Of a DNA stretch of 20,855 nucleotides, positions 1 to 9,932 are shown one piece after another. The notes beneath the pieces were generated by a model. It searched no databases. It was not told the origin of the DNA and saw nothing but the letters and a program-made list of their open reading frames with translations. This stretch comes from a virus. A program made the position numbers and the translations under genes. The first letter of the stretch is position 1. Each line of letters begins with the position of its first letter. The stretch covers positions 1 to 20,855 of the IMG/VR virus record IMGVR_UViG_3300032322_001555, one strand, 5' to 3'.

Positions 1-242
1 GAGAATTAACAACAAGATTGAAAAATATCATTGTTGCTATTGATGGTGAATCTGGAAGAGCAACGGTAAATAACTTTGTTGATAACGAATTGTTTGCGGT
101 TGATTCACGAGCCCTTCGTGCTCATATCAAGGATATGTCACCTGACCTCGATATGACTTTCACATTTGTTTCAGATACCACGGGTGAGGTAAAGGAGATG
201 GAAATCCCTATGGGAGTTTCATTTTTTTGGCCTGGGTCTTAA
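1..242 (+). CDS. Baseplate hub / tail assembly chaperone protein, gp26-like, C-terminal part
   Basis: The reading frame is open from the window edge (codons begin at base 3) to a TAA at 240-242, so this is the C-terminal part of a gene that starts outside the window. A TTG at base 18 could be read as a start but the frame stays open before it. The pattern 'IDGESGRATVNNFV', then 'DSRALRAHI', then 'PDLDM' and a terminal 'FFWP' matches my memory of the T4 baseplate protein family (gp26, PF12322). Relatives I recall often carry a Cys-x2-Cys pair between the last two blocks; this copy has no cysteine at all and reads 'SDTTGEVKE' there. In T4, genes 26 and 51 sit next to each other near the tape measure gene, the position of lambda G/GT chaperones. 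It overlaps the following gp51-like frame. Family membership is fairly sure; the exact role (hub subunit or chaperone) is inferred. Confidence 0.72.
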   Translation, partial: ELTTRLKNIIVAIDGESGRATVNNFVDNELFAVDSRALRAHIKDMSPDLDMTFTFVSDTTGEVKEMEIPMGVSFFWPGS

Positions 243-447
243 TTATAAGATAGGATTACATGAAGAGATATTCTCTTTATGTTATCATGGTAGAGGTGGT
301 TTTACTTGGGATGAAGTTTATAATCTTCCTATTCACTTGAGACGGTTTTACATACAACAAGTTTCAAAAGCAATAGAAGAAAGAAATAAAGCAGAACAAG
401 GACAGGTAACTAAAAAACCTGCACCACCTCCAAGATTTAACAGATAA
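229..447 (+). CDS. gp51-like extension, apparently expressed by frameshift from the gp26-like gene
   Basis: Frame +1 relative to the gp26-like gene is open from base 193 to a TAA at 445-447. It encodes a coherent segment: 'GLGLNYKIGLHEEIF', then a 'GRGGFTWDEVYNLPIHLRRFY' core, then a charged tail ending 'APPPRFNR'. The 'YNLPIHLRRFY' pattern is typical of gp51 (hub assembly catalyst) proteins of T4-like marine phages, as I recall them. No ATG, GTG or TTG exists in this frame before the TTG at 337, which would delete the conserved core. The overlap lies on a run of seven T (222-228), where a Phe tRNA on TTT could move +1 (or the ribosome -2) and read GGC at 229. I infer a gp26-gp51 fusion made by programmed frameshifting, analogous to lambda G-GT. 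Coordinates give the part read after the shift. Alternative: CTG (232) or ATA (250) start, or a sequencing error. Confidence 0.62.
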   Translation, partial: GLGLNYKIGLHEEIFSLCYHGRGGFTWDEVYNLPIHLRRFYIQQVSKAIEERNKAEQGQVTKKPAPPPRFNR

Positions 448-451
448 TTTG

Positions 452-488
452 TGGTCTACATATTTATAGATATGTAGACCATTTTTTT
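452..488 (+). terminator. Rho-independent terminator after the gp26/gp51-like genes
   Basis: A perfect 12-bp stem (452-463 pairs with 470-481) closes a 6-base loop TTATAG and is followed directly by seven T (482-488). It begins five bases after the stop codon at 447. The stem and loop also hold the octamer ATATTTAT (460-467) that recurs before other genes. Confidence 0.88.
460..467 (+). promoter_or_regulatory. ATATTTAT motif, copy 1 (candidate promoter element)
   Basis: Octamer ATATTTAT lies 37 bases before the ATG at 504, inside the terminator stem-loop. It is one of five intergenic copies. A start about 7 bases downstream would leave a leader holding the GGAG at 492-495. Being inside a hairpin weakens the promoter reading for this copy. 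Confidence 0.3.
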
Positions 489-729: not shown

Positions 730-3700
730 ATGGCAAAACAATCTGAAAATATCGGTAATGAGAAAAAATTAAAATCGGAGATACTATCTCTCGATAGTCA
801 ATTGCTTTCTGTCAGGAAGAAGATACAGGAACTCGAAGAACAAGGTCTTAAAAATAGTAAAGAATATGAGTCTTTACGAGAGAAAGAATTAAAAGACCAA
901 CGAAAACTTCGTGACACAGAAAAAGAATTAGAGAAATTACGAGATAAAAAACTCGAACAAGAGCAAGAGTTAAAAACTTTTGGAGAAGACCACATCAAGT
1001 CCATGGCAAAGCAAAAAGCTTTGATGGACAGTCAATCCAAAACAACAAAAGACATACTCGCTAATAACGATTTTTCTGCAAAACTAAACGATGACATTTT
1101 AAATAAAATAGAAAACTCTGTTGACTTATTAAAAGAACAGGGTTCTTTATCGTCTGCTTATGTTCGTAACTTACAAGAAGCAAAATCATTTGGTGAATCT
1201 ATTAGCAATATTCAATCTGAAATTGCAAAACAAGCGGACAAAGCCGCCGCTGGCGAATATACGGCAGTGGATTTATCGCAGCAAAAATTAGATTATGCTT
1301 CGTTATTAGAAAAGTTACAAAAAGAAAAAAACAATATGTCTGTTGACGAAAGGATAAACACCGTCCAGATGTTACGTGCATATAAACAGGCGATAAATCA
1401 ATCAGAGTCCATGAACAAGGCACTCGAAGAAAGTGCAAAAACAGCCGGAAAAGTTTTAGGTGTATTTGATAGTGTGACTAATTTAGATATAAAAGGTGCT
1501 TTGATAAAAGGATTTGGATTAGATGATATACAAGAACAAGTAAAGAAAAAATTAGGCGGTTCGCTTGTAAATATATTTACCGCAATTCGTGGTGAAGGTG
1601 GATTAGTTGGTGGATTCAAAGCTGCAGGACAGGGATTAGGTGACTTAGTTAAAATGGCACCAAAACTTCTCACTGCACTTGGTATTGGTGCAATTGTTGC
1701 ACTTGGAAGTTTTCTCATAAAAACATTTTTAGAAGCCGATAAAGAAGTTGCTCAACTTGGTAAAGACTTTGGTATAAGTAAAAATGAAGCAAAAGAACTT
1801 CACCACACAGCCGTTGATGTTGCCAACGAAATGAAAATAGTTGGTATCAATTCTGAACAAGTTGCTAAGGGATTAAAAACCGCAAGTGAAAATCTTGGCG
1901 GAATGGACTTAACTGGTGCATTTAACAGTGGAAATAAAGCAGTTCAACAAATGGTAAAAGACACAACAATCCTTACTGAAAAATTCGGATTGAGTGGAGA
2001 AGAGGCTGGTAACTTAAATAACATAGCCGCCATCAGTGGTAAATCTGTTGGTGAAATGAGTATGATGGCAACTAAACTTGGAAACGGTATCTTTTCTGCA
2101 AAAGAATCCATGAAGATACTCGCTGGTATTCCAAAAAGTGTTGTATCATCTATGTCTAAAATGCCAGAGGCAATGATAAAAACTGCCATGCATGCCAAGT
2201 TACTTGGTATGAACATGAAACAGATTGCAGATATTGGTAGAAAGAGTTTGGATATAGAAGAATCTCTTGAAGCAGAAATGGAAGCTAGAGCGATTCTTGG
2301 TAAAGATATAAATCTTGATAAGATGCGAGCAGCTGCACTTGATGGTGACCAAGAAACTGTTATGAACGAATTGTTAAATGCCGCCGGTTCAATGAATGAT
2401 TTTAACAAAATGAACGTCATTCAGAAAGAAGCTCTTGCAAAAGCCGCTGGTATGGAAGTTGACCAACTTGCAGAAATGTTGGGTAAACAAGAGGAATTAA
2501 ATAAAGCCGGTTTGTCTCAAACAAAATTACAAGAATTACAATCAAAAAATGCGGCAGACCTTGCAGCTGAAGCGGCTGGTACAAATGATGCAAATAAAAA
2601 GGCATATATTGAAAAATTAGCGGCAGAAAAGAAATCAGAAGAAACACAAGCTGCTATGGCAGACCTTATGAAGAGAATACAAGAACTTGCGGTTAAACTT
2701 GTTACTCCAATTATGGACATGGTTGACGGTTTAATGAACGGTAAAGATGGGGCAAATGCTCTCGACGGTATATTAAACTTGGTCAGTGGAACTATAAAAG
2801 GTATAGTCCCATTCATAAAAATTATATCAACAACTATTGGATATTTAATAAAACCATTGACTTGGATATTAGGTGCATTTTCTTCAACAGAAGAAACAAC
2901 CGAAGGTGTTGCTAAGGGTGTGGAAAAGGTTAGTGGTGCAATTAAACCAGTAGAAGCTGGTTTTGGAAATGTTCTTGGTGTAGTAACTGCCATAGGGGGA
3001 TTGTTTGCTGGGAAAGCTCTTCTCGGTAAAGGTCTTGATATGCTCAAAGGCAAGGCAGGTGATTTGGGCTCAACTCTTGTTTCAAAAGTAGGTGGTCCAC
3101 TTGGTAAAATAGGTGGTAAACTTTTTGGTGGTGGTAAAAAAGAAGAAGCCGGTGGAATCGGTGGTGGTGATAAATCTGCCGTCGGTGAAGCAGAAAAAGG
3201 CAAGAACATGGTATCGGGAATACTCGATAAAATGAAATCAATTATTGACTCCATAAAAGGTGTTGTTCAATCTGCTATTGGATTTGTCAGAGACGTTGGT
3301 AAAGATTTACTTGCAACATTAAACGATATTGTTAAGGGTATAGGTGATATTTTAAAAACAGGTGCCGATATTATATTTAATGTTGGAACAACCCTCGCAG
3401 AAGGCGCAATGAAGATATTGAATATCATTATGGATGGATTGGCAAGTGCTGCAAAAAGACTACCAGACATAATGGGTGCACTTGGAAAAGCAGTAGTTGC
3501 ATTTTTTGAACCATTGGCTTCATTAGTAAATCCGATGGTAATTGCGGGTATAGCTATATTTACCGGTGCAATGATTGGATTAGGATATGCGTTTAAACTT
3601 CTTGGTGAAGGTATCGGTGCAGCTGCACCTGGTATAAAAACGTTTTTTGAAGGCGTTGGTGTTCTAGTCGAATCTGTTGGTGAGGCGATTTCAAAAGTAA

Positions 3701-4380
3701 TTGAAACGATAACAACATCGATAATTAGATTACAAGATATTGACGGTGGTAAATTATTAACAACCGCCGCTGGTATAGTTGCAATAGGTGGTGCGATGGC
3801 CGCACTTGGTGCAGGAAAAGCGGCAGAAGGATTTGGTTCTTTTGTTGGTGCGATTTTTGGTGGCGGTGATGACCCATTTGAGAAATTAATAAGTTTTTCA
3901 GATAGAATGAATCCAGAAAAATTAGTAGCCACTGCAAATGGTATGAAAGTATTAGGTGACGTATTCAAGAGTGTTGCGGACTCTGTACAACTACTTGCAA
4001 GTTCATTAGATAAAATAGACCTATCAAAAATGGATTCTGCCCTTGAGAAATTAAAAGAGGCAAAGGAATTGACAGATATGTCAGTTGGTGAAGGTATTGC
4101 TGCCGCGGCAGAATCTTTTGTTGGTGGTATAACAAGTATATTCGGTTCATCGGAAGAACAAAAGACACAAGGAGTTGCAAGTACAGCCGGTGGTGGAGGT
4201 GGTAAAGGTGGTGATAAAATAGACCAAGTTATAGGATTACTTGCCCAAATACTTAGTACCACAAACCAACCAACAGTTATCAAGTTTGGTGATAAGACTG
4301 TGGAAGAAATTAAAGGTCAACTGAACTTCAAAAAAGCATATACGATAGGAACAGATAATAGTTATGGTCGTTCAATCTAA
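730..4380 (+). CDS. Tail tape measure protein
   Basis: The 1216-residue product has the build of a tape measure protein, which sets tail tube length and is ejected with the DNA. Residues 1 to about 120 are a Lys/Glu/Leu-rich coiled coil. Residues about 140-250 are further helix. A strongly hydrophobic stretch lies at about 309-333 (from 'MAPKLLTALGIGAIVALG'), another at about 936-960 (from 'MVIAGIAIFTGAMIGLGY'), and several Gly/Ala-rich hydrophobic blocks follow a linker 'GGGKKEEAGGIGGGDKS'. The C-terminal third is low-complexity helix and ends with a Gly-rich linker and a short charged tail. No peptidase or lysozyme motif was seen. There is no good Shine-Dalgarno sequence near ATG 730; translation probably continues from the upstream gene. 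By the usual rule of about 0.15 nm per residue the length would match a tail near 180 nm, clearly longer than that of T4 (gp29, about 590 residues). The large open frames on the opposite strand are shadows of its Gly/Ala-rich codons. Confidence 0.88.
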   Translation: MAKQSENIGNEKKLKSEILSLDSQLLSVRKKIQELEEQGLKNSKEYESLREKELKDQRKLRDTEKELEKLRDKKLEQEQELKTFGEDHIKSMAKQKALMDSQSKTTKDILANNDFSAKLNDDILNKIENSVDLLKEQGSLSSAYVRNLQEAKSFGESISNIQSEIAKQADKAAAGEYTAVDLSQQKLDYASLLEKLQKEKNNMSVDERINTVQMLRAYKQAINQSESMNKALEESAKTAGKVLGVFDSVTNLDIKGALIKGFGLDDIQEQVKKKLGGSLVNIFTAIRGEGGLVGGFKAAGQGLGDLVKMAPKLLTALGIGAIVALGSFLIKTFLEADKEVAQLGKDFGISKNEAKELHHTAVDVANEMKIVGINSEQVAKGLKTASENLGGMDLTGAFNSGNKAVQQMVKDTTILTEKFGLSGEEAGNLNNIAAISGKSVGEMSMMATKLGNGIFSAKESMKILAGIPKSVVSSMSKMPEAMIKTAMHAKLLGMNMKQIADIGRKSLDIEESLEAEMEARAILGKDINLDKMRAAALDGDQETVMNELLNAAGSMNDFNKMNVIQKEALAKAAGMEVDQLAEMLGKQEELNKAGLSQTKLQELQSKNAADLAAEAAGTNDANKKAYIEKLAAEKKSEETQAAMADLMKRIQELAVKLVTPIMDMVDGLMNGKDGANALDGILNLVSGTIKGIVPFIKIISTTIGYLIKPLTWILGAFSSTEETTEGVAKGVEKVSGAIKPVEAGFGNVLGVVTAIGGLFAGKALLGKGLDMLKGKAGDLGSTLVSKVGGPLGKIGGKLFGGGKKEEAGGIGGGDKSAVGEAEKGKNMVSGILDKMKSIIDSIKGVVQSAIGFVRDVGKDLLATLNDIVKGIGDILKTGADIIFNVGTTLAEGAMKILNIIMDGLASAAKRLPDIMGALGKAVVAFFEPLASLVNPMVIAGIAIFTGAMIGLGYAFKLLGEGIGAAAPGIKTFFEGVGVLVESVGEAISKVIETITTSIIRLQDIDGGKLLTTAAGIVAIGGAMAALGAGKAAEGFGSFVGAIFGGGDDPFEKLISFSDRMNPEKLVATANGMKVLGDVFKSVADSVQLLASSLDKIDLSKMDSALEKLKEAKELTDMSVGEGIAAAAESFVGGITSIFGSSEEQKTQGVASTAGGGGGKGGDKIDQVIGLLAQILSTTNQPTVIKFGDKTVEEIKGQLNFKKAYTIGTDNSYGRSI

Positions 4381-4424: not shown

Positions 4425-7400
4425 ATGGCATTATTAGATTTATCATCCGACTTATCAAGATTTCGTTCCGAAACTTCAAAAGAGGCAAAAAATACTCCTG
4501 AAGCTTCGAAGGCAACGAACAATAAGAATTTTGCAACGATGCAACCTATAACTCAAAAGTTGTCATCGTTCTCCCCTACAATCAATAAGGTTGAAACCAA
4601 AAAGTTAGAAGACAATCTTGGTTCCACCCGATTGGATGATATACGCAAATTTGCAATGGAGAATCTCCTAATAAATTCTGTATCCAGATTCTCAGATGTA
4701 AATCTTGCCTTTAAAGAAGAAAGTTTAGGACAGATTTCAACAGAACAAGTTGCATCCAGATACAACAAATTGCAACAAGGTGGATTCGTTAGTCGCCTTG
4801 ATAAATCAAATACTCTTGTTGTAAAGACAACACAAGGAACAAACAATCTAACTTCTCCAATTGATATAGTTGTAAATAAGAATGATGCATCGGATAACAT
4901 TCAAAATCCGAATATAAACATCACACCGTCTCAACTTACATTTGACCGAGCAAACACAACTCCAAATATCAAACCAGTTGTTGGTGATGCCACGGATAAT
5001 ATCACGAATCCAAACATTGATATAATTCCGGGTCAACTTACATTTGATAGAAGTAACTCAAGTCCAAATATTTCGGTAAACAAAAATGATGCATCCGATA
5101 ATATTACAAACCCAGATGTTGTAATCAACAATGTTCCTTTAACATTTGATAGAACAAAGTCCAGTCCAAATTTAGTTATCAAACAAGATGATGCAACTGA
5201 CAATATCACAAATCCAAATGTTGATATAGTAAAGAAGGCACTTTCATTTGATAGAACAAAACAATCTGTAAATATTAATACTGATTTGGTTTCTCCGATT
5301 AACAACATCGTTGACCCAAAGATTGCACTGGAAACAACAACACTTGTTTTTGATAGAAAGAATGAAACACCAAACATAATAACCGATACAATAAAAGAAG
5401 GTTTGGTTACTGACCCTAATACAAAAACATTCAAAGTCGAGAATGGTAAATTCCATTTGACAGATGAAAGTAGATTGAATCCTGATGGTATGCCAATTAA
5501 ATTTGTTGTATCATCAAAACTTGTAAACAAAAGACCACAACAAGATGTGGATGTAAAAGTTTACAATCAACAATCACAACAACTAAAGGACAACAGTCGT
5601 TTAAATGTTGATAAGGTAGAAAAAACAATACCATCTGGTAGAAATGAAGACCCAAACAAATCAAAGTTTGCAATAATTGGAACTCAAAGTGTAAACTTCT
5701 TCCCAGATACAAACGGAAGTGGATTTACAACAAAACCACAAAAAGGTGTTTCTCTTTATACAGACAGTTCTGAATATAGTTGGAAAGGTAGTAGAAACGA
5801 TGCACCTTCAACGAATTTCATTACAGATGTAAATGGAGTTGGTTTCAATACATTTGTTAAGAACAATGAAACTCTTTACAAGAATGAAACATCCATTTAT
5901 GGCTTCACTAAGATACCAGAAACTAATTTCTTTGATATTAATCAAAACTATACAAGTGAAGGATTCAAATCTTTTGTAAGTCAATTGAAATCGGTGTTTC
6001 AAAAAGACTCCTCATCTTACACATTTAAAGGTAGTCCACAAAATGCACCTGAAACAAACTTCTTTGATGTTTCTGGTAACAACACATCAAAAGGGTTTGA
6101 AAAATTTACACAGCAACTTGTAAGTAGATACAATAAAGATTCATCAAGATTTGATTTTGATGGTTCAAACCAAAATGCACCTGAAACAAACTTCTTTGAT
6201 GTTAATGGAACATATACAACAAAGGGATTTGAAAAATTTGCTCAAAAATTACAAAGTAAGTATGTAAGAGATGTTTCTGCATTTGGATTTGCTGGTTCAA
6301 AACAAAGTGCACCAACTACGGATTTTTTTGATAATTCAAAGGCAAGTGGATTTACAAAGTTTCCACAAAAAATGCAATCGGAGTATTCAAGAGATTCTTC
6401 CGAATTTACATTTAAGGGAACAACACCGAAAGCTGTAAATTTCTTTGATAATACATCGGCAGATGGATTCACGAATAAGATTGGTAAACTTGAAAGTAAA
6501 TATAAGAAAGACATTTCTGGTTTTACATTTAAGGGGACTCTACCAAAACCAGTTGATTTCTTCCAAAATACAAATGCAGTTGGATTTGAAAACAAGATAC
6601 AACAGAATGTAACAAAATACAAAAAGGATAGTTCCAATTTTACATTTAAGGGAACAACTCCAAAATCAGTTGACTTTTTTGATAATTCAAATGCAACTGG
6701 ATTCACTAATAAAATCGCTAAGAATGAAACGAAATACATTCCAGATTCAAGTGAGTTTACATTCAAAGGTTCTTCGCAAAATGCACTGACGGTAAATTAC
6801 ATACCAGATACATTCAATGCTGGATTTACGAAGTTTCCAAAGTCATTAGAATCGGAATATATAACAGATGTTTCAAGATATGGATTCAAAGGAACTCGTG
6901 CAACTGCACCGAATGCAGATTTCCTAACAAATACAAATGGAAAGGGATTTACAAATTTAGTACAAGCATTAGAAACAGATTACGATGTAAAATCAAGTAA
7001 GTTCACTTGGGTAGGAAGTAGACAACAAGCACCTGCCGTTGATTTCTTCAAGATACCCGGTAACAATCCAAATGGAATTAGTGGATTTGATACATTATTT
7101 GATGATAAAACAAAAACAAAATACTCAGATAGTTTATCATCACTTTCAATAGAAAGTTCAAATAACAAATCAACCGTTAGAAATGTTCCCTTTACAACGT
7201 TCTTTGGTTACAGACCTGCCGAACGTTCTGGATTTATGGTAAACATGAGTACATTTGATGGTACGTTATATCCTATAATAGAACCAAAATTAAAATATAG
7301 CGATAGTCAAGGAACAAGATTTTCCGTTGCATCTTCACGGTCTGTTTCTGGTGGATTATCAAGTGTTGATTTAGAAACATATGCACCACTTTCTCTTGGT

Positions 7401-9932
7401 AAAAGACCGTGGGCAAATGGAACATTGTTTTCAACACTTGACACACAAGTACCGAATATAAAGACAAAAGGAATTGCAGGTTCATACTCAAACAAATATG
7501 AACGTGGTGTAAAAGATAACACAGAACGCCAAGGGTATCTTACAAAATGGGCAACCACGAGAAATTCACCATCTCCTTTGGATGAGCAGTACCTTAAATA
7601 TAAACTTCAAAACGAATCCGTAAATAGAGAAGTTGCTGCATTTAATCAACCATATGTTGTTCGTGGAATTCAACGTCATGGTGAAGTTGAAAATCAACGT
7701 TGGGGATTTGGTGTAACATTTGACGATGGGATAGTTCGAGGTGGTGCGGTAACACAAGCGGAAAGAATACTTCAAGATGTATTTCGTATAGGTAAATTCA
7801 CTGCAAGTGTTAAAGGCGGATTATTCGTAGTAAAACAACTTGGATTACAGGCAATGAATCCGGCCGTTGATGTTGACCCTAAAACTCCAACGAGTGGATT
7901 GTTTGGAGTATCTGCAACATTAGGATATAATCCATTAACGATGTTGGCAAACGTTGCAACTGCAAGAGGTGGTGTTCATTTAGCAAGACATGGTTTGTTC
8001 CCATTTGACTCGGATTACTTAAACAAATACGGAAAAGCAACTTCAAATAGAGAATTAAATCAAAGATTTATAGACCCTGCATATAAATCATTTGAAAATT
8101 TAGGGACACCAAATGAAGCACTAAGAGACCCCGGTGGTTATAGTAGATTGATTGGATTGATGAAAGAACTTTTACCAAATTCATTCAAACCTACTAATAA
8201 AGAAAAATCACCAAGTATGGCACAACAACTAAAAGAATTGGTTGGTATATCTTCTATTGCAAGAATATCCAGTACATTTGGTGGTGCCCAATCTTATTTT
8301 GGAATAGGTGGTACATCTATTCGTCGTGCAGGTCACCCATATTTGACAAATTATACAACATCCCCAACATTAGAGAAATCTGTTTCTGGCGGTACAGCCG
8401 AAGATATTTTAAACGCAGTATCACAGACACAACCGCAATATTTGGATTCTGCAAAAAGAGATACATATTATGCAGCAACAAAAGTATATGGACAACAGGA
8501 TGTTGGTAATATTGGTGAAAAAGACTTAAAACAACTTACTTATACGTTGGGTGGAGCCAAAATATCCGGTGAAGAAAGTAATAATGGTGATAGAAATAAG
8601 ATTGGATTCCAATCAGAAATAATTGATGCCATAGAAAAATATAATCCATTCAGCCCAAAATATCCTGTTCCTGCCGATAAGTTTAAGAAAAAAACAGGAA
8701 ACACTTTTAAAGAAACTTTAAATGATGGGCCTAATCCATATGATGTGGATTCATCAAATCTAATAAAACAGTATAGAACTGTATCTTATGGTAAACTTCA
8801 AAAAGCAAAGAAAGGTGTTGCTGGAAGGTCTAACACATTTAATGATTTTAGACATGATTTGACATTGAGCGGTTCAGAGTCGTTTATAACAAATCCAAGC
8901 GTCGCAAGATATGATTCTCGTAATTTAGAAGATTACTTTGGTCTTGGTAAACAAGGGAAAATTGGTGCTCAAAGAAATTTGCCTTTCGTCACAAACATAG
9001 AATATAGAGCCGGTTCTACACAACCAATTGTAAAATCAAACCAAGAATTTAGAGGCGATAGAATTAATATAATAGATTATAAACGTCATGATAAGCCCCT
9101 ATCAAAAGATTTGGTATATGAAAGAGGAATTTATAACAATCCAACACTCCCAGGTGCGGAAGATTTCGTAGAATTTTATTTCAGTTCGATTACATTAAAT
9201 GGTGGCAAAAATAATCCGGCAGAGGCAATAGTATTCCGTGCAACATTTGATAGTATAACAGATAATCATAAACCAAGCTGGAGCTCCGTTAAATACATGG
9301 GACGGGCAGACCCACTTTATGTTTATCAAGGATATGAGCGTTCTATTTCATTTGGATTTACCGTTCACATCGGTTCTCGTGACGAAATGAAGGCATCTTG
9401 GAGAAAGTTAAATTATCTTGCGTCTTGGACTGCACCTGAATATACAAAGGCTGGTTTTATTAAAGGACCGATGATTAGATTGAACATAGGTAATTTATAC
9501 AGAAAAATGCCTGGTTATTTGGCAAATCTTACATATACTTTCGATAATACACAAACAAATTGGGAAACCGCAAAGTTGGTGGAAGACCAAAAACTATCAG
9601 GACAAAATTCATCATTATCAATGCCTGGTGTTTTACAATTACCAAAAACTATTCAAGTTTCTTGTGAGTTTGTCCCAGTTGGTGTATATCGACCAGAATA
9701 TGGTGGAACTATGTATTCTCTATTTGATGATACAACTGGTGGTGGTATGGAGAATGGATTGATGCCTACTGAAAAGGGTAAGGTGAATTATTTTAAAACG
9801 TTTGATAATGATACTCTTGATAGCAATGATAATACGGCATATTTACCAATACCACCTGGTAAAGAAACAGAAATACCAACACAAACTGGTGATGTTGACA
9901 AATTATTTGATGTAAGTGGAAGCTCAGTATAA
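4425..9932 (+). CDS. Giant repeat-rich tail/baseplate protein with tube-cap-like C-terminal domain
   Basis: The 1835-residue product has four regions. Residues 1-153 are polar and Ser/Asn/Lys-rich. Residues 154-323 are five 34-residue tandem repeats with core 'DATDNITNPN...LTFDR'. Residues 424-924 are about twelve units of about 37-52 residues with core 'NFFD....GF...Q...S.Y..DSS.FTFKGS...AP'. The rest is non-repetitive. A segment near residues 1045-1200 ('RWGFGVTFDDGI', 'GLFVVKQLGLQ') and one near 1580-1790 ('FRATFDSITDNHKPSWS', 'YMGRADPLYVYQGYERSISF', 'KLNYLASWTAPEY', 'LPKTIQVSCEFVPVGVYRPE') resemble phage tail proteins of the tube-initiator or cap type that I recall from T4-like phages (gp48/gp54 role). 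It lies between the tape measure and the LysM and hub genes, as expected for such a protein. T4 gp48 and gp54 are only about 320-360 residues, so the repeats are a large addition. Start ATG 4425 has AGGT six bases upstream. Structural role is confident; the exact T4 counterpart is not. Confidence 0.78.
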   Translation: MALLDLSSDLSRFRSETSKEAKNTPEASKATNNKNFATMQPITQKLSSFSPTINKVETKKLEDNLGSTRLDDIRKFAMENLLINSVSRFSDVNLAFKEESLGQISTEQVASRYNKLQQGGFVSRLDKSNTLVVKTTQGTNNLTSPIDIVVNKNDASDNIQNPNINITPSQLTFDRANTTPNIKPVVGDATDNITNPNIDIIPGQLTFDRSNSSPNISVNKNDASDNITNPDVVINNVPLTFDRTKSSPNLVIKQDDATDNITNPNVDIVKKALSFDRTKQSVNINTDLVSPINNIVDPKIALETTTLVFDRKNETPNIITDTIKEGLVTDPNTKTFKVENGKFHLTDESRLNPDGMPIKFVVSSKLVNKRPQQDVDVKVYNQQSQQLKDNSRLNVDKVEKTIPSGRNEDPNKSKFAIIGTQSVNFFPDTNGSGFTTKPQKGVSLYTDSSEYSWKGSRNDAPSTNFITDVNGVGFNTFVKNNETLYKNETSIYGFTKIPETNFFDINQNYTSEGFKSFVSQLKSVFQKDSSSYTFKGSPQNAPETNFFDVSGNNTSKGFEKFTQQLVSRYNKDSSRFDFDGSNQNAPETNFFDVNGTYTTKGFEKFAQKLQSKYVRDVSAFGFAGSKQSAPTTDFFDNSKASGFTKFPQKMQSEYSRDSSEFTFKGTTPKAVNFFDNTSADGFTNKIGKLESKYKKDISGFTFKGTLPKPVDFFQNTNAVGFENKIQQNVTKYKKDSSNFTFKGTTPKSVDFFDNSNATGFTNKIAKNETKYIPDSSEFTFKGSSQNALTVNYIPDTFNAGFTKFPKSLESEYITDVSRYGFKGTRATAPNADFLTNTNGKGFTNLVQALETDYDVKSSKFTWVGSRQQAPAVDFFKIPGNNPNGISGFDTLFDDKTKTKYSDSLSSLSIESSNNKSTVRNVPFTTFFGYRPAERSGFMVNMSTFDGTLYPIIEPKLKYSDSQGTRFSVASSRSVSGGLSSVDLETYAPLSLGKRPWANGTLFSTLDTQVPNIKTKGIAGSYSNKYERGVKDNTERQGYLTKWATTRNSPSPLDEQYLKYKLQNESVNREVAAFNQPYVVRGIQRHGEVENQRWGFGVTFDDGIVRGGAVTQAERILQDVFRIGKFTASVKGGLFVVKQLGLQAMNPAVDVDPKTPTSGLFGVSATLGYNPLTMLANVATARGGVHLARHGLFPFDSDYLNKYGKATSNRELNQRFIDPAYKSFENLGTPNEALRDPGGYSRLIGLMKELLPNSFKPTNKEKSPSMAQQLKELVGISSIARISSTFGGAQSYFGIGGTSIRRAGHPYLTNYTTSPTLEKSVSGGTAEDILNAVSQTQPQYLDSAKRDTYYAATKVYGQQDVGNIGEKDLKQLTYTLGGAKISGEESNNGDRNKIGFQSEIIDAIEKYNPFSPKYPVPADKFKKKTGNTFKETLNDGPNPYDVDSSNLIKQYRTVSYGKLQKAKKGVAGRSNTFNDFRHDLTLSGSESFITNPSVARYDSRNLEDYFGLGKQGKIGAQRNLPFVTNIEYRAGSTQPIVKSNQEFRGDRINIIDYKRHDKPLSKDLVYERGIYNNPTLPGAEDFVEFYFSSITLNGGKNNPAEAIVFRATFDSITDNHKPSWSSVKYMGRADPLYVYQGYERSISFGFTVHIGSRDEMKASWRKLNYLASWTAPEYTKAGFIKGPMIRLNIGNLYRKMPGYLANLTYTFDNTQTNWETAKLVEDQKLSGQNSSLSMPGVLQLPKTIQVSCEFVPVGVYRPEYGGTMYSLFDDTTGGGMENGLMPTEKGKVNYFKTFDNDTLDSNDNTAYLPIPPGKETEIPTQTGDVDKLFDVSGSSV
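4884..5393 (+). repeat. Five in-frame 102-bp (34-residue) tandem repeats
   Basis: Units begin at residues 154, 188, 222, 256 and 290 of the tail protein. Each has 'D(A)(S/T)DNI.NP' at its start, '(L)(T/S/V)FDR' at positions 18-22 and '(S/T)(P)N' near 25-28. Units 1-4 are close to each other; unit 5 is diverged ('SPINNIVDPK'). All five are exactly 34 residues, so length is under constraint even where residues vary. Confidence 0.92.
5694..7196 (+). repeat. About twelve in-frame repeats of about 37-52 residues
   Basis: Each unit starts with [N/D]F[F/I/L], has a conserved GF 8-12 residues later, then 'Y..D(S)S.(F/Y).(F/W).G' and often '(Q).AP' before the next unit. Units 6-9 are shortest (about 39 residues) and share the nucleotide run TTTACATTTAAGGG. 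The last unit is longer and diverged, and a partial thirteenth follows with 'TFFGYRPAERSGF'. The aromatic/Gly spacing suggests small beta-rich beads on a string. Confidence 0.9.
6039..6203 (+). repeat. Exact 33-bp direct repeat within the bead array
   Basis: The 33 bases at 6039-6071 recur exactly at 6171-6203, a period of 132 bp (44 residues). They encode the 'NAPETNFFDV' junction between units 3/4 and 4/5. Identity at the DNA level, while flanking parts differ, points to a recent duplication or gene conversion of one unit. Confidence 0.9.

Follow-up and report, generated by a model that had tools for sequence, protein, structure and literature searches.

Vladimirov, Gautam and Davidson reportedly recognized in 2022 (Virology 566:9-15) that the gp26/gp51-type genes are the chaperones of T4-like phages. 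A later paper cites their work in connection with -1 signals of the polyT kind that T4-like TAC-N genes contain (PMC12846349). In long-tailed phages, frameshifting of the G/GT type is general and can proceed by -1, -2 or +1, T4 being the named exception (PMC5009743). In this context, the following systems can be compared: (i) phage lambda, in which gpG and gpGT are linked by a -1 shift; (ii) T4, where genes 26 and 51 are separate and located on opposite strands, and gp51 includes an N domain of its own; (iii) cyanophage S-PM2, with the order N, T and next large gene and a T domain apparently reached by -1 (its site reads TCT TTT TTC GCA TAA, the T domain follows in the -1 frame, and the annotated gp51 starts at an internal ATG); and (iv) HSTV-2, a contractile-tailed archaeal virus whose tail chaperone undergoes a G/GT-type shift that is very likely +1 (PMC5009743).

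The locus described here is found at the beginning of a linear IMG/VR virus record (hereafter, the window, i.e., the whole stretch of 20,855 nucleotides that was analyzed). The record begins within a gp26-like gene and, since its first base falls inside this gene, the start of the gene can be read only in relatives. Judging from the sequence, it is very probable that a T4-type phage with a contractile tail makes its tail assembly chaperone from this locus, as TAC-N and TAC-NC, through programmed +1 frameshifting on UUU or CUU followed by U. When compared with the above-mentioned systems, (i) the shift would be +1, in contrast to the -1 of lambda, and the N domain belongs to the T4 gp26 family; (ii) the N-domain family (phrog_150, PF12322) is common to the T4-like chaperones, whereas the separate genes of T4 are unlike the arrangement in the window; (iii) the order of the genes is that of S-PM2; and (iv) a contractile tail and a G/GT-type shift that is probably +1 are features by which it resembles HSTV-2. 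The features of the locus are:

3 to 242, plus strand: 3' end of the short chaperone gene (TAC-N; T4 gp26-like, phrog_150/PF12322 family), frame 0, with its 5' end truncated by the contig
193 to 228, plus strand: portion of the +1 ORF located 5' of the slip, lacking a start codon and probably untranslated in +1; just 8 nt in some relatives
222 to 233, plus strand: slip site TTT TTT TGG CCT, with T7 at 222-228; proposed +1 slip of Phe-tRNA from 225-227 to 226-228 while UGG is the A-site codon
229 to 447, plus strand: T domain (TAC-C; gp51-like), in the +1 frame after the slip, stop codon included; predicted three-helix domain
240 to 242, plus strand: frame-0 stop codon TAA, which ends the short form, 18 nt from the start of the slip site
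730 to 4380, plus strand: tape measure protein of 1216 aa, on which the chaperone is expected to act, with matches to phages immuto and Mel-JY01

In frame 0, the codons of the window are TCA (219), TTT (222), TTT (225), TGG (228), CCT (231), GGG, TCT and TAA (240), and the C-terminal end of this frame (3-242) is VSFFWPGS followed by the stop. The +1 ORF (193-447) has 84 residues and its product begins GLGLNYKIGLHEEIFSLCYHGRGGFTWDEVYNLPIHLRRFY. A re-reading of the sequence agrees with the original prediction in every coordinate: positions 193-447 are open in +1 relative to the gp26-like frame; the two frames overlap at the run of seven T; a +1 slip from 225-227 to 226-228 is followed by GGC at 229; and no ATG, GTG or TTG precedes the core, the sole such codon being a TTG at codon 36 of the +1 ORF, within HLRRFY itself.

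A search of IMG/VR with the +1 protein as query returned 63 related loci, and TTTTTTTGGCCT (T7 followed by GGCCT) is unchanged in all of them. The flanking wobble bases do differ: the Ser codon before the T run can be TCA, TCC or TCG, and the bases past CCT vary. A wider scan with the chaperone alignment gave at least 594 relatives among the matches listed; the best 80 of these, more distant, were examined at the site, and TTT YTT T(GG, AC or TC) CCT is kept in 79, the remaining one ending before the site. In 145 loci (110 unique sequences) from many assemblies, and in isolate genomes, the site has the form TTT YTT T(GG/AC/TC) CCT. The T run, the overlap and the frame are, as the original prediction had proposed to check in related phages, conserved across the lineage.

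Homopolymers are error-prone on some sequencing platforms, and a run of six or eight T through an indel was the case that the original prediction named against itself. An indel error or a pseudogene in the contig has, nevertheless, a negligible probability: T7 GGCCT recurs in 63 of 63 related loci despite the varying wobble around it, the same site is present in the 145 loci, and there is protein-level constraint on both frames. The case of six or eight T is excluded, and it is confirmed that the original observation is real.

Among the 110 unique sequences, the first slip codon is always TTT and the fourth always CCT. The second is TTT (91) or CTT (19), never TTC or any other Leu codon, and the third is TGG (105), TAC (3) or TTC (2), with U as its first base throughout. 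The frame-0 stop lies 15-27 nt downstream, and the +1 frame remains open for at least 69 codons. In the same gene, Phe is encoded by TTT 866 times and by TTC 231 times, and CTT accounts for 547 of 2774 Leu codons. As the loci share descent, such counts are not independent and parsimony offers a fairer test. On a tree of 137 sequences, the third bases of slip codons 1, 2 and 4 changed 1, 1 and 0 times, respectively, as compared with 8-42 times at 55 other conserved codons (12 and 10 times in the two other Phe columns).

In a codon-by-codon comparison, third positions vary freely in frame 0 as far as the codon preceding the T run, TTT TTT TGG CCT shows no variation at all, and from CTN onward third positions are free in frame +1. 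This passage of wobble freedom from frame 0 to frame +1 is the mark of a single protein read across a frame change. The constancy of CCT and TGG can be attributed to both frames being coding; that of TTT and YTT is not explained by dual coding and, therefore, these codons appear to have been retained for slipping. It is very unlikely that the fusion arises instead from RNA polymerase slippage, which at T7 would yield mRNAs with six or nine U and would dispense with a ribosomal shift. Such slippage would agree with the invariance of T7 across the clade of the window, but the same overlap and T domain occur at CTT TGG, TTC TTT TGG and TTT CTA TTC, that is, without a long homopolymer, and the constraint falls on YTT T rather than on the length of the run.

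Regarding initiation, 24 of the 110 unique sequences have no start codon whatsoever ahead of the T-domain core. One relative (L029) lacks any start codon in its whole +1 ORF, in another and its kin (L026) the +1 frame is closed 8 nt 5' of the T run, and no start of its own for the T ORF is conserved in the 110. Two divergent loci, L178 (2220-2552) and L183 (2220-2511), do encode the T domain in an ORF of its own, which opens with an ATG located 2 or 5 nt past the frame-0 stop and adds an N-terminal extension (MENIDNLLREIQ.. and MNIDRFLQELQ.., respectively). In both, the +1 frame is no longer open, on account of which they are regarded as a derived alternative and not as a refutation; a switch from frameshifting to reinitiation is probable there. 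The relatives with a start of their own, which according to the original prediction would speak against it, are L178 and L183. That the T domain is in general made separately, from an alternative start or by ribosomes that reinitiate where the gp26-like gene ends, finds its model in L178 and L183; it is, nonetheless, likewise very unlikely, as neither the window nor most relatives have a conserved start, L029 has none, and the third-base conservation of the slip codons would be left unexplained.

The original prediction left the direction as +1 (or -2). A ribosomal -2 shift, as reported for phage Mu (PMC5009743), would link the same two frames with one extra residue. For the T7 sites alone, re-pairing is also possible in this manner: TTT TTT T permits Phe-tRNA to pair two bases back, CTT can move to TTC, and the resulting frame is identical. 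Three other junctions are informative: (i) TTC TTT TGG CCT in a sister clade of 14 loci (L168-L177 and L179-L182); (ii) TTC TTT CGT in Streptococcus phage GXN1 (L073, 2212-2220); and (iii) TTT CTA TTC in the 484-kb record LR756508. A -2 shift would put Phe-tRNA on UCU at the first two and on ACU at the third, whereas after +1 it re-pairs on UUU/UUC. The +1 direction is favored for this reason, and -2 is considered unlikely. A UUU or CUU codon re-pairing by +1 on the next U or C would be the one rule that fits the sequences of all the sites. In the window, most likely, UUU (225-227) occupies the P site and UGG (228-230) is the next codon; re-pairing at this site requires an A-site codon beginning with U.

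The proposed +1 slip resembles two cases from elsewhere. In prfB (release factor 2), a +1 frameshift takes place at CUU UGA C. The likeness lies in a P-site CUU or UUU that moves to UUU on the following U, and 19 unique sequences here have CUU U, mostly as CUU UGG C. But the A site is here UGG, UAC or UUC and not a stop codon, and there is no adjacent internal Shine-Dalgarno, which sets the site apart from the prfB type. The PA-X protein of influenza A is produced by a +1 shift at UCC UUU CGU; the site of GXN1 (UUC UUU CGU) is alike in the core UUU CGU alone, and gene and host are unrelated.

As for stimulators, no conserved downstream RNA structure was found: the consensus fold is weak (-3.4 kcal/mol), and the hairpin of the window folds well (z -2.9) yet is disrupted in several relatives. 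RNA folding in immuto and RM378 gave nothing above shuffles. The sequences just upstream in the related IMG/VR loci contain no Shine-Dalgarno-like element close 5' of the slip. Further away, 25-30 nt 5' of the slip site, the window has a Shine-Dalgarno-like AAGGAG (192-197), and AAG GAG is kept in 26/27 and 26/29 clade sequences despite a preference for AAA and GAA elsewhere in the gene. It was rejected as a stimulator, the distance being too great for known roles and the element being missing in two relatives (L041 and L050).

The gp26-like fragment of the window is too short for profile scoring, and its family was assigned by means of relatives. The phrog_150 (baseplate hub) profile matches the N domain of the Mel-JY01 homologue (9e-12), RM378 (2e-17) and SP-15 (3e-31), while PF12322 recognizes SP-15 and RM378 and gives no match for Mel-JY01 and immuto. 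T4 gp26 and T4 gp51 both match phrog_150, and PF12322 over almost its full length; since both match PF12322, T4 gp51 can be described as the N domain plus ~45 further residues and T4 gp26 as the N domain alone. An AlphaFold model of the N domain of a near relative (pLDDT 87) matched T4-type baseplate hub assembly proteins in a viral library (E 2e-14). Among solved structures, the model is closest to 2OB9, the tail assembly chaperone of HK97 (Z 4.7 and rmsd 4.6 over 93 residues), where a Z below 8 can be due to chance.

The T domain was modeled as three helices, and the model found among solved structures small helical matches only (Z <3); a PHROG scan of T domains returned nothing significant. 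The T-domain profile matches the T domains of the jumbo phages Atu_ph07, PA5oct and RAS14 (probability 93-95), though those are read in -1. With the C terminus of T4 gp51 (hhalign E 0.011) and with S-PM2 (E 0.002), it aligns in register, yet weakly; the E-values of the link to T4 gp51 do not convince by themselves, and a further comparison gave no significance. When the profile of the fused protein was compared directly with T4 gp51, the match was not significant, and single-protein scans of IMG/VR with the RM378 and SP-15 chaperones recovered only the queries themselves.

Over 356 positions, the product of 730-4380 is 27% identical (4e-22) to the protein annotated as tape measure in Flavobacterium phage immuto, and across its whole length it is 42% identical to the Mel-JY01 homologue. 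In Mel-JY01, the order is sheath, tube, chaperone, T, a 71-aa ORF and the tape measure homologue. Both in Mel-JY01 and in immuto the chaperone is placed between the tail tube and tape measure genes; the tube gene of the window's phage lies outside the window. Two overlapping ORFs, the second without a start of its own, together with a conserved slippery site, are what characterizes the G/GT type, and all are present here.

Other elements accompany these genes. After the stop of the T domain, and before a 73-aa ORF and the tape measure gene, the window (452-488) has a perfect 12-bp hairpin followed by seven T, similar to an intrinsic terminator, which could determine how much chaperone is made relative to tape measure protein; a terminator-like hairpin is found at the same place in 29 of 111 unique relatives, Mel-JY01 among them. 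The 73-aa ORF (504-725), which separates the T domain from the tape measure gene, has its counterpart in the similar 71-aa ORF of Mel-JY01, in the equivalent place and with an IAKRKV motif, which belongs to no known family. On the 3' side of the tape measure gene, positions 4425-9932 encode an 1835-aa protein with many degenerate repeats of ~40 residues (e.g., SSEFTFKGTTPKAVNFFDNTSADGFTN) and no Pfam match.

In general terms, the locus would operate as follows. Most ribosomes would terminate at 240-242 and release the short form, TAC-N. In a minority, the P-site Phe-tRNA would slip +1 from UUU (225-227) onto UUU (226-228) while UGG waits as the A-site codon; these ribosomes would continue with GGC CTG and add a T domain of 72 residues, giving rise to TAC-NC (...VSFF-GLGLNYK...). 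On the analogy of lambda G/GT, the tape measure protein, produced immediately downstream, would be covered by many copies of TAC-N and few of TAC-NC, with the T domain as the presumed recruiter of tail tube subunits. The slip is probably ribosomal, and it is from the same analogy that its efficiency, the ratio of the two products and their need for tail assembly are presumed.

The idea that gp26 and gp51 are the T4-type equivalent of G/GT, advanced in the original prediction, is supported by the common phrog_150/PF12322 family, but it restates the one attributed to Vladimirov 2022, and T4 itself does not have the arrangement. Similarly, the claim of a same genomic position holds for S-PM2 (apparently -1) and not for T4, with its genes on opposite strands. 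As regards the direction, described as uncommon, +1 is less common but not rare: forward shifts make up 350 of the 2718 in the PRFect training set, and, according to PRFect, no general forward motif has been identified (PMC10274946). The apparently new elements are the +1 direction in the gp26/gp51 chaperone family, its wide spread (at least 594 relatives in one scan, with 79 of the best 80 keeping the site) and the change of strategy among homologues.

It seems reasonably likely that a single chaperone family alternates among (i) -1 frameshifting (S-PM2, PA5oct, Atu_ph07, RAS14); (ii) +1 frameshifting (the lineage of the window, immuto, SP-15, GXN1, RM378); (iii) a T domain encoded apart and probably reached by reinitiation (L178, L183); and (iv) gene duplication (T4), and that in the +1 branch the signal is minimal, i.e., YUU then U, the A-site codon being a sense codon, and neither stop codon, Shine-Dalgarno element nor conserved structure. 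The outcome of a short and a long chaperone would be preserved while the decoding trick differs. For annotation, this means the correction of a gene pair currently labeled "hypothetical" or "baseplate hub", whose T domain is missed or given a false start. A large group of uncultivated phages carries this tightly conserved, probable +1 slip site, and its natural variants, which number in the hundreds, belong to a simple kind of site for which general rules are so far missing.
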